From Clostridia bacterium (GTDB lineage Bacteria > Bacillota > Clostridia > Oscillospirales > SIG627), in assembly GCA_017440805.1 (NCBI GenBank), contig JAFSGN010000022.1:248225-312224 (forward strand): 64,000 nucleotides of DNA, written 5' to 3'. The position numbers and the translations under genes are program-made. The notes beneath the pieces are model-generated. The model saw only the letters and a list, made by a program, of their open reading frames with translations, was not told where the DNA came from and did no database searches. Every line of letters begins with the position of its first letter. The first letter of the stretch is position 1. Shown one piece after another: positions 50,710 through 55,635 of the stretch.

Positions 50710-52275
50710 TTACCTCAGACCAAAGTCATAATCGTTATAGAAATATCCGCTGTCATTTCCGGAATAACCTTTTTTGAAATTTGCATAGTTTATAAAAACA
50801 GAAACTGCTCTTTCAAAAATGCCCTTAAGCTGACTTTGACTTACTTGGAAGATATCCTCCGTCAAGAACGGAAATTGCGGCACTGCAAAATTGGAAAATC
50901 CAAGGGATATGCCGGGATGTATTTCCCCCGAATAAAAAGCAACACTATCAAAAGATATTTCCAGGGAATTTGCACTATACAAAATATTACCGTCAGCACT
51001 GACAATTTTTTCCGGTATACCATCTTCTGTGTTCTGTATGTAAAATTCGTATACATGCTTTTCAGAATCAATTTTAAACGCACATTCTGTAAAGAACCCG
51101 GGATGTTCCGGCAACACAAGAGTTAATATATATTCATCAGAAACATCGGTGCGGTTATTTGAAAAAACACCTTTTACGGTATTTATACCATTCGTTATTT
51201 CAAACGATATGTTCCTGTCAGGTTCAATCGTAAAATCAACTTTATTTTGTGTTCCGTCACTATAACAGAACAACTCTCCGTCAACCTTCTGCAACATTCC
51301 GCTTTTAGTGTCAAAATGAAAATTGTATATCAGCGACACATCGGTCAATAATTGCAATACACTCTCTATTCCTGACTTGAAATAATTTAAGTTATTTTCT
51401 TTTAATATATCAAAGTCAATGTCCAGATTATCACAGATTTCCGAAGGAATTAAAATTTTTAAAAATTCGTTTCCTGCTTCTGTCTGTGCTTCATATCCGG
51501 ATAAAAGCACATAGAAAATGTCATACACGACCCGACTGTCAATTGTACGGGTATACTTTAATATTTTCCTGCTTTCCCCGCCTGTATCAACTGTATATTC
51601 GCTTACCTCTTTACCGGTTGTATCAAAAATCTCCTTTATTTCTGTCAAAATCAAATCTTTGATTTCACTCTTAATATCCATATACTTTTCAAAACAACCT
51701 GAAACACTCTTGAAATATTCTCGGTCAAAGCCATGTTGCTGACAGAACATAACAACTTTTTCTTCATCGAGTTCCAAAAGTTGCCCTAAAGGAGAAACAA
51801 TAAACTTATCCAGCATTTTTTCAGGGTCGGAGAAATCTATACTATATGATTTTCCTCTTCCCAACAACAAATCGGATTGTATAACCACACATGATGTATC
51901 CGCATAAACACTCAAATCCGCTGTTTCGTTCGGAATTATCCCTTTTAATTCCAAATCAATACTTATTCTTTTGTTTTTTCTGTCTGATTTTATTTTGGAA
52001 AAGATGTTGGAGTAACCGTTATAGGTATAATCTGAATATTCTGCGACCAAGGAAAGTTGGCCATTGTTTTCTGCTATAAAATTTAACGGTTTAATTTCAT
52101 CTCCAAAAATTTTCTCAAAATCAACCGACCTGGATAAAACATCAACGAAATTTTTGCTCAGATAATCTGCAGTGAGATTTTTGGTTCCTGTTTTTTGCGG
52201 TATATTGCTGCATCCGCCTAAAAAAAGAACTGTTGTTAAGCCGCAAAGCAGTACTGTCAACAAGAACTTTTTCAT
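50710..52275 (-). CDS. Hypothetical lipoprotein
   Basis: The 521-residue product has a signal peptide and a lipobox TVLFLGGC with the lipidated Cys at residue 22. The rest is a mix of alpha and beta parts with many Ser and Asp, and no motif that I recognise. Lengths match another lipoprotein in this window (8150-9715) by chance; the sequences look unrelated. AGGAGTGAT precedes the ATG. The 74-bp interval to the preceding gene contains a terminator, so it is probably its own unit. Confidence 0.78.
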   Translation of the reverse strand: MKKFLLTVLLCGLTTVLFLGGCSNIPQKTGTKNLTADYLSKNFVDVLSRSVDFEKIFGDEIKPLNFIAENNGQLSLVAEYSDYTYNGYSNIFSKIKSDRKNKRISIDLELKGIIPNETADLSVYADTSCVVIQSDLLLGRGKSYSIDFSDPEKMLDKFIVSPLGQLLELDEEKVVMFCQQHGFDREYFKSVSGCFEKYMDIKSEIKDLILTEIKEIFDTTGKEVSEYTVDTGGESRKILKYTRTIDSRVVYDIFYVLLSGYEAQTEAGNEFLKILIPSEICDNLDIDFDILKENNLNYFKSGIESVLQLLTDVSLIYNFHFDTKSGMLQKVDGELFCYSDGTQNKVDFTIEPDRNISFEITNGINTVKGVFSNNRTDVSDEYILTLVLPEHPGFFTECAFKIDSEKHVYEFYIQNTEDGIPEKIVSADGNILYSANSLEISFDSVAFYSGEIHPGISLGFSNFAVPQFPFLTEDIFQVSQSQLKGIFERAVSVFINYANFKKGYSGNDSGYFYNDYDFGLR

Positions 52276-52349: not shown

Positions 52350-54599
52350 TCACCCAAATATTGCGGTAAATAACACTGGCATAAACCACACTAACTGGTA
52401 ACAACATATATGCAGTGCATTAACACCCGGCATACATCCCCCGCCGATAAGTGAAAGAGCAATTACCATTACAAAGGCAACTATGACAGAAATAAATTTT
52501 GTCAAAATATTGAGGGAAACATTTTTTGCGATTTTATTGCAACACAAAATACCTCTGAGCAAATCAAATGCATTTCCTTTGCAGACCACACCGGCAGACA
52601 CATTATCATAAACCTCGTCTGCAGGCAACGGAAGTGTCGATTTAACTATCCGAACATAATATTCCTTGCGACGCAAAAGTTTTGTGAGCAATGCATCATC
52701 AATATTAGGGTCGCAGGACTTTATTCCTACACAAACACCTACTCCCGTAAGTCTTGAAAGCAGTTTTTCAAAACCACGGTATATTGAATATTTGATATAG
52801 AACTTGGCGGCAATGTTATCGCCTACAGTCATATACATTATGCGACCTACGGAATTTTCAAATGCGTCGTCTGTTGAATCTTTTACAAATCCGAAATTAT
52901 ACGCCAACATAAAACTTTTTTTGCCTATGTACACATCGTTTCCGTCTATGACAGTGCGTATTCCATCGGGTTCGATAGAAACAATTTCTACCGGCTGGAC
53001 ATCGTCCACCGCATTCTTTATATAATTCTCAAACACCGGTGCAAGAGGACCGCCCACCGTTTTAAAAATGCGTGCAGCATACATAATTGTATGGTCTATT
53101 CTGTGTTCACCGTAGGTTCTTACACTGTTAACCTTTATTCCGCCCGACGGAAAAACAACAGTATCGTTAAAGGATACAACATCTGCAACACTATACTCCT
53201 CAAAGGTGTTTCCGCCTATCATGGCACAACCTTTTCTGAACACCCTGAAACTTTCAACAAGGTATGGCAGGGTTATATACATAATTGAAGATACAGGAAG
53301 CATGGCAAGGCACAAAATTGCAAGAGCATTAAATGCCGCATTTAAGTCACCGCTCTGAACAAAAATTATAATTGAAAAAGCTATTGATGCTATGACTACA
53401 AGAGGAAGAATAATTTTGAAATTTCTATCCGACTCCGGTGCAGTATTTATATTTCTTACCGCATCATCGACAAATTTCGCCTTTTTGAATGAAAAAATTT
53501 CAGGGTCTTCGGGAAGGTATTCATCCAGTTCGTAAAGGTTTTCCTCGTGTTTGTCTCTTTTTTCGGCAACAAGTTTTTCACCGTCAGCCGAAAGAATTTT
53601 GAATGTAAGAAGATTTCTTCGGCTCTCCATGTAATTTTTCAGTAATGTAAACACACCGAAAAGGCAGCCAACAGATGAATAAAGCATTATTGTTTCGGGT
53701 GTGGAGGTAAAATATACCGCAACTGAATGCAAAGCACAGACTGTCATGGCAACCGCAGACAATGTATTGGAATTAGGTTTTCCGCGGAACATTGCTTTAA
53801 AACCATCTATAAAGTTTTCATAAATAAGTGCTGCCGAAATAACAAGAAGTTGTATATCAACCAAAACCAGAACAAGCCTCATTTTTGTCGGGTCAAGAAA
53901 AGCAGGACGCGGAATTGACGAGTTAAAAGAAAAACTTTCAATATACATCATTGCCAAAAATACAATTATTCCGCAGACTGTAAGCAAAAGAGAAAATTTG
54001 GCTGAAGAACGGTAATAATTTATAAACTGTTCTGCTTTTGACGGATCGGTATATTCGTCTATTTCAAATTGTTCTTCTTGGTCTTCTTCATCATCCTCGG
54101 TATCATTTGTATCATACGGATTGTATTCTGCGTCTGATAATCCGTCAATTGCTCCGTGGTCAACTTCACCGAATACAACTTTCATATCATCATCAGAATC
54201 CTGATTTAATTCATCACTGTCTTCCATTGCACGGATATCTTCATCGACCTGCAGGGTACTGCGTATTTTTCCGTTACGCCTTTTACTGCGTTTTTCATTT
54301 GAAACAGATTCTTCGTCATAAATACTTTCCGCACTCTGCTCGGGCATAACAACCTCTTGGGGAGGTGTACTTGTAATCCCGAAAACAGCAGTATCTTCGT
54401 GTTCGTTTTCTGCCGGTTCAACAATAAAATTATCAATATCCTTTGTTTGTCTTTCAGTCTTGCTTTCGTCAATCATTACATTATCAGCCGTATCTGATTC
54501 AGGCACGCCGTATTTCTTATCATATCCGTGAAAGAAATATGAGGGCGGCTTTTTCATTAGCCCCTTGGGGTCATTGGAGATTTTGTATGTATTTGCCAT
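52350..54599 (-). CDS. Degenerate P-type ATPase homologue with acidic N-terminus
   Basis: The 749-residue product keeps the plan of a P-type ATPase. An acidic disordered region (about 1-190) is followed by membrane helices 1-4, a short actuator-like loop, helices 5-6 with a Pro (LAMLPVSSIM), a large cytoplasmic part and two helices at the end. The catalytic block DVVSFNDTVVFPSG stands where active pumps have DKTGTLT: the phosphorylated Asp is Asn478. Nucleotide-domain pieces (GIRTVIDGNDVYIGKKSFM) and a phosphorylation-domain tail are still recognisable. It is therefore probably a non-pumping relative. ATG 54599 has AAAGGA about 12 nt upstream. Confidence 0.78.
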   Translation of the reverse strand: MANTYKISNDPKGLMKKPPSYFFHGYDKKYGVPESDTADNVMIDESKTERQTKDIDNFIVEPAENEHEDTAVFGITSTPPQEVVMPEQSAESIYDEESVSNEKRSKRRNGKIRSTLQVDEDIRAMEDSDELNQDSDDDMKVVFGEVDHGAIDGLSDAEYNPYDTNDTEDDEEDQEEQFEIDEYTDPSKAEQFINYYRSSAKFSLLLTVCGIIVFLAMMYIESFSFNSSIPRPAFLDPTKMRLVLVLVDIQLLVISAALIYENFIDGFKAMFRGKPNSNTLSAVAMTVCALHSVAVYFTSTPETIMLYSSVGCLFGVFTLLKNYMESRRNLLTFKILSADGEKLVAEKRDKHEENLYELDEYLPEDPEIFSFKKAKFVDDAVRNINTAPESDRNFKIILPLVVIASIAFSIIIFVQSGDLNAAFNALAILCLAMLPVSSIMYITLPYLVESFRVFRKGCAMIGGNTFEEYSVADVVSFNDTVVFPSGGIKVNSVRTYGEHRIDHTIMYAARIFKTVGGPLAPVFENYIKNAVDDVQPVEIVSIEPDGIRTVIDGNDVYIGKKSFMLAYNFGFVKDSTDDAFENSVGRIMYMTVGDNIAAKFYIKYSIYRGFEKLLSRLTGVGVCVGIKSCDPNIDDALLTKLLRRKEYYVRIVKSTLPLPADEVYDNVSAGVVCKGNAFDLLRGILCCNKIAKNVSLNILTKFISVIVAFVMVIALSLIGGGCMPGVNALHICCYQLVWFMPVLFTAIFG

Positions 54600-54765
54600 A
54601 TTTCTGACTGTTCCTTTCCGTGCCTCACGGCACAAACCGTAAAACTGAAATAAACTGCTTCATGGGTAGACCGTATATTATTTCAGGTAAACCCGAAAGA
54701 ATAAACAATGATGTAAAATGTTTTTTCAGATTTCTGTTTCTGATTTCTGATATACCTTATAGTTA

Positions 54766-55635
54766 TCAATTGCTGTTTCGTCCGCTTATTGCACGATAGA
54801 GGACTGCCGCAGCGGCACATGATACATTAAGTGAATTCACCTTACCTCTCATCGGCAGGGAAATAATATAATCGGAATTTTTCAAAACCTGTTTTGAAAT
54901 ACCGTTTTCTTCGCTTCCGAGGATTATACAAAGAGGAATATCATAATCCACACTGTTGTAGTCGGTTCCACCTGCTTCGCAGGACATAATCCACAGTCCT
55001 TTTTTCTTCAATTCCTCTATGGTGGCATTGATATTTGTAACCTTAGCCACCGCCATATGCTCTATTGCACCAGCCGATGCCTTTGCAACCGCGGGACTCA
55101 ACCCCACGCTTCTTCTCTTTGGTATTATTACCCCGTGTACTCCGGCACCCTCACAACACCGTATAAGCGAGCCGAGATTATTAGGGTCGCATATTTCATC
55201 CGCTATTACAACAAAAGGCTTTTCACCTCTCTGAGTTGCTATCTCAAGGATTTCGTCAACTGTTGAGTAACCTTTAAACGCCGCCATAGCCACAATTCCC
55301 TGATGGGAAGTGAATCCGGAAAGCGCGTCAAGTTTACTTTTTTCGGTTTCAATTATCGGTATTCCTCTTGAAATAGCCTCTGCCGCCAATGCCACAATTG
55401 AACCCTCGCGTTCTCCTTGCTGAGTATATATCTTATCAATTGTGCGTCCGCTTTTAAGAAGTTCCCGAACAGCGTTACGACCTGCAACAATACCGCTGTC
55501 GACCAGTTCATCTCCGCTTTTTTCAAAGCCTTCTCTTGTGGGATGTTTACGGTATTCCGTTTTTTTTCTGTCGGAAAAATCTCTGCCGTGCTGCTTTGAA
55601 TTTTTTGCATATTTTGCCGTATTTTTGTTATTCAT
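54766..55635 (-). CDS. rlmB: 23S rRNA (guanosine-2'-O)-methyltransferase, RlmB/SpoU family
   Basis: RlmB methylates the ribose of G2251 in 23S rRNA. The 289-residue product has a Lys/Arg-rich tail at its N-terminus (about 1-50) and then the substrate-binding domain and SpoU fold. The SpoU motifs are ADEICDPNNLGSLIRCCEGAGVHG, IILGSEENGIS and SLPMRGKVNSLNVSCAAAAVLY, the last with the knotted fold. ATG 55635 overlaps the dapB stop in the form ATGA, so translation is coupled. The N-terminal extension is longer than in E. coli. Confidence 0.94.
   Translation of the reverse strand: MNNKNTAKYAKNSKQHGRDFSDRKKTEYRKHPTREGFEKSGDELVDSGIVAGRNAVRELLKSGRTIDKIYTQQGEREGSIVALAAEAISRGIPIIETEKSKLDALSGFTSHQGIVAMAAFKGYSTVDEILEIATQRGEKPFVVIADEICDPNNLGSLIRCCEGAGVHGVIIPKRRSVGLSPAVAKASAGAIEHMAVAKVTNINATIEELKKKGLWIMSCEAGGTDYNSVDYDIPLCIILGSEENGISKQVLKNSDYIISLPMRGKVNSLNVSCAAAAVLYRAISGRNSN

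Follow-up and report, generated by a model that had tools for sequence, protein, structure and literature searches.

The minus-strand gene at 52350..54599 of the window (the whole stretch of 64,000 nucleotides that was analysed) encodes a pseudo-P1B-ATPase, a protein which keeps the fold of a heavy-metal P-type pump and has lost the catalytic motifs. This pseudo-pump belongs to an undescribed family of single origin, which is retained throughout one order of Clostridia under purifying selection and is linked to rlmB, the gene for a 23S rRNA methyltransferase. The P-type fold is present, the homologues lack DKTGT, and selection is purifying; therefore, a kept fold, a lost phosphorylation and a new non-transport role form the best-supported reading. 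A non-transport role as sensor or scaffold had been proposed in the original prediction; its non-transport part is the best supported, and the scaffold or sensor mode of action is what we infer beyond it. Two findings go beyond that prediction: the family extends across the order with a constant link to rlmB, and position 478 is variable.

Fold and catalytic motifs of the pseudo-pump

The features of the gene and its protein are listed in Table 1. The coding sequence is an open frame with a ribosome-binding site ahead of its start codon, as had been claimed. The window protein matches the heavy-metal P-type ATPase model TIGR01525 (NCBIfam) at E=1.9e-7, a score well under the curated cut-off, and its PDB sequence match is a weak one to CadA (7qbz). 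Pfam holds no family for this protein, nor for three divergent members. The AF2 model of the core (residues 180-749, with 24 homologues) has a pLDDT of 89.2 and a pTM of 0.85, and its helices fit MA, MB and M1-M6 of the P1B pumps (eight helices). The top structural matches are P1B pumps, led by LpCopA (3rfu; Z 22.5 over 482 residues, with an rmsd of 8.4 A that probably reflects domain positions); ATP7B (7si7) follows with Z 21.2, and Foldseek matched the model to 4bbj (E 3e-16). In profile-profile alignment (hhalign), the family aligned with 16 canonical pumps of the same class over 560 columns (probability 100, E 5e-41). The AF2 model, the fold search, TIGR01525 and the profile-profile alignment thus agree, and the P1B fold is confirmed; structure prediction, which had been set beforehand as a test, gave a P-type fold. 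By overall fold and homology, the protein is a member of the P1B P-type ATPases.

Table 1. Features of the pseudo-pump gene and its upstream partner in the window
Feature	Position	Strand	Evidence
Pseudo-P1B-ATPase gene, 749 aa, ATG at 54599	52350..54599	minus	ORF; TIGR01525; AF2 model; structural match to LpCopA 3rfu
Ribosome-binding site GGAAAGGAA, ahead of the ATG	54611-54619	minus	read from sequence
N-terminal acidic, poorly conserved region, residues 1 to ~185; start motif MAxYKI common to the window's own family	54045..54599	minus	alignments
Actuator domain remnant, residues 337-388, without TGES	53436..53591	minus	family median length; hhalign gap over the TGES beta domain
M4 with helix-breaking prolines P435 and P445; CPC cysteines absent	53265..53297	minus	family counts; alignment to canonical-pump CPC
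Former DKTGT site, now VVSFNDTVVFP, residues 474-484 (N478 at 53166-53168, D479 at 53163-53165)	53148..53180	minus	family consensus; no DKTGT in 106 members
N-domain motif G546...G559; HP histidine position upstream, replaced (VGGPL)	52923..52964	minus	family counts
TGD equivalent S628-C629-D630, then PN; downstream GDGxND unit deleted	52710..52718	minus	family counts; hhalign gap over GDGxNDxPAL
rlmB, 23S rRNA (guanosine2251-2'-O)-methyltransferase, conserved upstream partner	54766..55635	minus	TIGR00186, SpoU_methylase, SpoU_sub_bind

The DKTGT, TGES and GDGxND motifs were each found in 0 of 106 non-redundant members. The loss of DKTGT, first read from the window protein, therefore holds for all of these members; the losses are also wider, since TGES, the KTGT residues, GDGxND, the CPC cysteines and the HP histidine have gone as well. 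In ungapped register, N478-D479-T480 lie on the D-K-T of DKTGT, so that the proposed replacement of Asp by Asn and of Lys by Asp is correct for this copy; Asn is not conserved, being present in 5/105 members. Column 478 varies (D27 A23 S13 T13 R7 N5, and others, among 105 members), and Asn478 is therefore one variant at a free position. The neighbouring positions are more constant: Asp479 is found in 86/105 members (82%), Asp or Glu at 481 in 97/105 (92%; Val481 in the window copy), Thr or Ser at 628 in 88/104, and Asp630 of the old TGD in 103/104 (98-99%). In some clades, D478 is present and the next residue is Ala or Ser in place of D479. The family signature is hhxDx(D/E)h(F/Y)P together with (T/S)xDPN. 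Motifs I and II of the HAD phosphatases are partly there, and the motif IV region is deleted.

The actuator domain has shrunk to a median of 52 residues across the family. The stretch from the TGD motif to M5 has a median of 49 residues, and its absent part holds GDGxNDxPAL in the profile alignment. In the N-domain, G546 is kept in 102/105 members and G559 in 105/105; these are the second and third Gly of GxG...GN, the first Gly and the Asn being mostly lost, as is the HP histidine. The nucleotide-domain-like piece recognised earlier (GIRTVIDGNDVYIG) proved to be this GxG...GN region. In the membrane domain, the M4 prolines P435 and P445 are kept in 91 and 87 of 105 members, respectively, so that the CPx metal-binding motif retains its Pro and lacks its Cys. 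Two other membrane residues are conserved in a diverse set (W738, 92%; G266, 89%).

The Post-Albers cycle of P-type pumps depends on these motifs. It is not to be expected in the pseudo-pump, which has neither the DKTGT Lys nor TGES nor the Mg site. From the motif losses, the loss of pump function across the family is strongly supported, and the pseudo-pump would not pump. The phosphorylated aspartate that defines P-type ATPases has been described as invariant (PMC10654040).

The acidic N-terminal region, put at about 190 residues beforehand and found to be about 185, is the least conserved part of the pseudo-pump. The start MANxYKIS is common to the window protein and its congener in the alignment. 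Many members outside the window's own family begin with a short motif, such as FSLDDILxEF (L122, L127, L128), which is followed by a long disordered linker. This start motif is perhaps a docking helix; a search for FSLDDILxE in the neighbouring proteins gave a single, chance-like match. One very divergent member (L156:1057-4095, minus strand) has an acidic N-terminal region of much increased length; on its contig, rlmB lies upstream of the gene and an EF-G-like gene follows it.

Distribution and origin of the family

The host group is one Clostridia order, probably Oscillospirales. At E<=1e-30, 191/198 genomes sampled from the order have a full-length homologue, each in a single copy. Two further divergent copies were recovered on re-search, one with its sequence read (G471) and one as two collinear pieces in one open frame (G435), which gives 193/198. 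In a class-wide draw, all 14 of the 14 order members matched over the full length; the 278 class genomes outside the order had no full-length match, and their best matches reached 1e-26 over the central part only. Among 16 fetched non-order matches, 15 carry DKTGT, TGES-type and GDGxND motifs. In a phylum draw, only order members matched at E<=1e-26. Absence outside the order thus means that the family was not found at the thresholds used, among the sampled genomes. A scan of a collection of genome contigs with the single protein sequence gave zero relatives, and a scan with a closer alignment (A2) gave 28 loci.

In a tree of 47 members and 16 canonical pumps, the two groups were split with an SH-aLRT of 100, and the members mostly grouped by host family. 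The family has descended once from a heavy-metal pump. A single mutated copy in the window was also considered, and the family-wide absence of DKTGT (0/106) rules it out.

Linkage to rlmB and possible roles

The rlmB gene of the window scores 197.5 bits against TIGR00186, above the curated cut-off of 160.15, and contains both SpoU Pfam domains. In 66 of 68 loci, drawn from many families of the order, rlmB is the immediate upstream gene and has the same orientation; of the two exceptions, one is cut by a contig end and the other (L126) is without rlmB. The gap between the two genes is usually within a few tens of bp, and in the window it is longer, about 166 bp. The remaining neighbours are mostly not conserved, except for a block within one family, and rlmB has stayed adjacent in some 20 or more families whose other neighbouring genes differ. 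An EF-G-like GTPase (~690 aa) is encoded directly downstream in 11/40 loci from several families of the order (e.g., L119:3686-5767, L149:7787-9856 and L155:3871-5904). In the window, the gene downstream (50710-52275, minus strand) encodes a putative lipoprotein of 521 aa, with a GGCSN-containing signal and no Pfam family.

The five order genomes without the pseudo-pump are also without rlmB; in one genus, both genes are present in three genomes and absent from three. The two genes are adjacent, and their joint absence may reflect one assembly gap, which would remove both; independent co-loss is therefore not claimed as proof of the linkage.

In the rest of the class, rlmB is followed by rae1 within ~60 bp in at least 16 genomes, as seen by comparing coordinates. 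In B. subtilis, yacO (rlmB) is co-transcribed with rae1 and belongs to the same genetic pathway, in which the loss of either gene suppresses efp non-additively (PMC6613710). Rae1-like domains were detected in 18/59 genomes of the order, mostly inside frames of roughly 860-960 codons. Two of these loci were read (L199:240-2909 and L202:233-2812), and in both an NYN_YacP domain is C-terminal in a TetM/EF-G-like GTPase of 859-889 aa. The window's genome had no match to the Rae1-like NYN_YacP domain.

A functional partnership between RlmB and the pseudo-pump is suggested by gene order alone. The explanation we favour, at somewhat better than even chances, is that the dead pseudo-pump has a role connected with translation and linked to RlmB, as a scaffold or sensor in the membrane. 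All eight membrane helices of the ancestral heavy-metal pump are kept, together with a compact N/P head that would be unable to run the phosphorylation cycle. The pseudo-pump would be made together with RlmB, and its cytoplasmic head might tether or regulate RlmB or another ribosome-linked function. A response of the head to a ligand or nucleotide is possible, by way of the N-domain glycines that remain and of the remodelled Asp479/Asp630 site. Several points weigh against this explanation. The two genes may be linked simply because they are transcribed together, and the gap to rlmB in the window is longer than usual. The many long branches indicate that the cytoplasmic sequence evolves fast for the scaffold of a conserved partner. 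With the conserved acids at 479, 481 and 630, some remaining chemical activity or metal binding is also conceivable. A bolder form of the favoured explanation can be held only tentatively: the pump, stripped of catalysis, might have been recruited as a dedicated membrane partner of RlmB in the operon slot of Rae1, tying ribosome maturation or quality control to a membrane or an ion/nucleotide signal.

A rather unlikely alternative is a dead ATPase with no functional tie to RlmB, which would regulate metal homeostasis, for example by pairing with an active P1B pump or by binding metal in its membrane domain, rlmB being a mere operon neighbour. The genome also encodes a CopA-like, active-type pump that has DKTGT, the M4 prolines are retained, and neighbouring genes need not share a function; however, the CPC cysteines are gone, and the adjacency to rlmB has outlasted changes in the other neighbours. 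It is less probable still that the membrane domain acts as an ATP-independent channel or carrier, through which an ion or small molecule would pass passively. In favour of this, none of the eight helices has been lost, M4 is still kinked, and W738 and G266 are conserved; against it, the family's signature residues are found mostly in the head, and few polar residues of the helices are conserved.

We give slightly less weight again to a remodelled site, in which Asp479-x-Asp/Glu481 and Thr/Ser628-x-Asp630 would form a HAD-like phosphatase or phosphotransfer site. The conservation of these four positions would fit such chemistry, but HAD motif IV (the GDGxND region) is deleted with its Mg ligands, some clades carry D478-Ala/Ser without D479, and the window copy itself has Val481.

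Finally, a decaying pseudogene of a metal pump is hardly credible and, for the family, refuted: the catalytic motifs are gone and two fetched homologues (L013, L027) each have one in-frame TGA, but single copies with open frames persist order-wide, G546, G559, D630 and W738 are near-invariant, and dN/dS is 0.02-0.14. These dN/dS values, from close pairs elsewhere in the family, indicate strong purifying selection, and the family is therefore functional; decay had already been doubted in the original prediction, from the intact frame and the ribosome site. The comparison with the congener was unusable, as dS was saturated. The in-frame TGA codons may be sequencing errors, decay or recoding. In L013, the TGA takes the place of a codon that reads Trp in L015, a close relative.

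Comparison with known systems

In the limited set of papers searched, the literature on inactive or pseudo P-type ATPases concerned mainly TMEM94, with no bacterial case, and no paper linking RlmB and a P-type ATPase in these clades was found. Likewise, we found no prior report of a bacterial, near-universal, single-copy, order-wide family without the phosphorylated Asp, TGES and GDGxND; Pfam does not contain the family either. The order includes many gut bacteria, and the steady pairing of the gene with rlmB in it gives a specific connection, open to experiment, between 23S rRNA methylation and a membrane protein.

The P1B ATPases (CopA, CadA, ZntA and ATP7B) share with the pseudo-pump the MA, MB and M1-M6 topology, the helix-breaking proline of M4, the P and N head, the TGD aspartate and the N-domain glycines. 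However, the pseudo-pump is without the metal-binding domain, CPC, TGES, DKTGT, GDGxND and the HP histidine; its actuator has collapsed to ~52 residues, and it has a long acidic N-terminal linker instead. The Dx(D/E) and T/S-x-D residues resemble motifs I and II of the HAD superfamily phosphatases, whereas the pseudo-pump is membrane-embedded and has the motif IV region deleted. As in the RlmB-Rae1 (yacO-rae1) pair of Bacillota, a second gene lies directly downstream of rlmB. Rae1 is a soluble ribosome-associated endonuclease (PMC6613710), whereas in the order an unrelated membrane pseudo-pump holds this slot.

Human TMEM94 also has a P-type layout with a proline-kinked M4, and in a cryo-EM study it was found to be without TGES, a phosphorylation cycle or ATPase activity (PMC12134183), although another paper terms it a Mg ATPase (ERMA) (PMC13322241). 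TMEM94 differs in being eukaryotic, in having ten helices, in not being of the P1B type, in keeping an A-like domain and in having no rRNA methylase link. Thus, the nearest relatives of the pseudo-pump by fold are the CopA-type pumps, and the nearest as a kind is human TMEM94.
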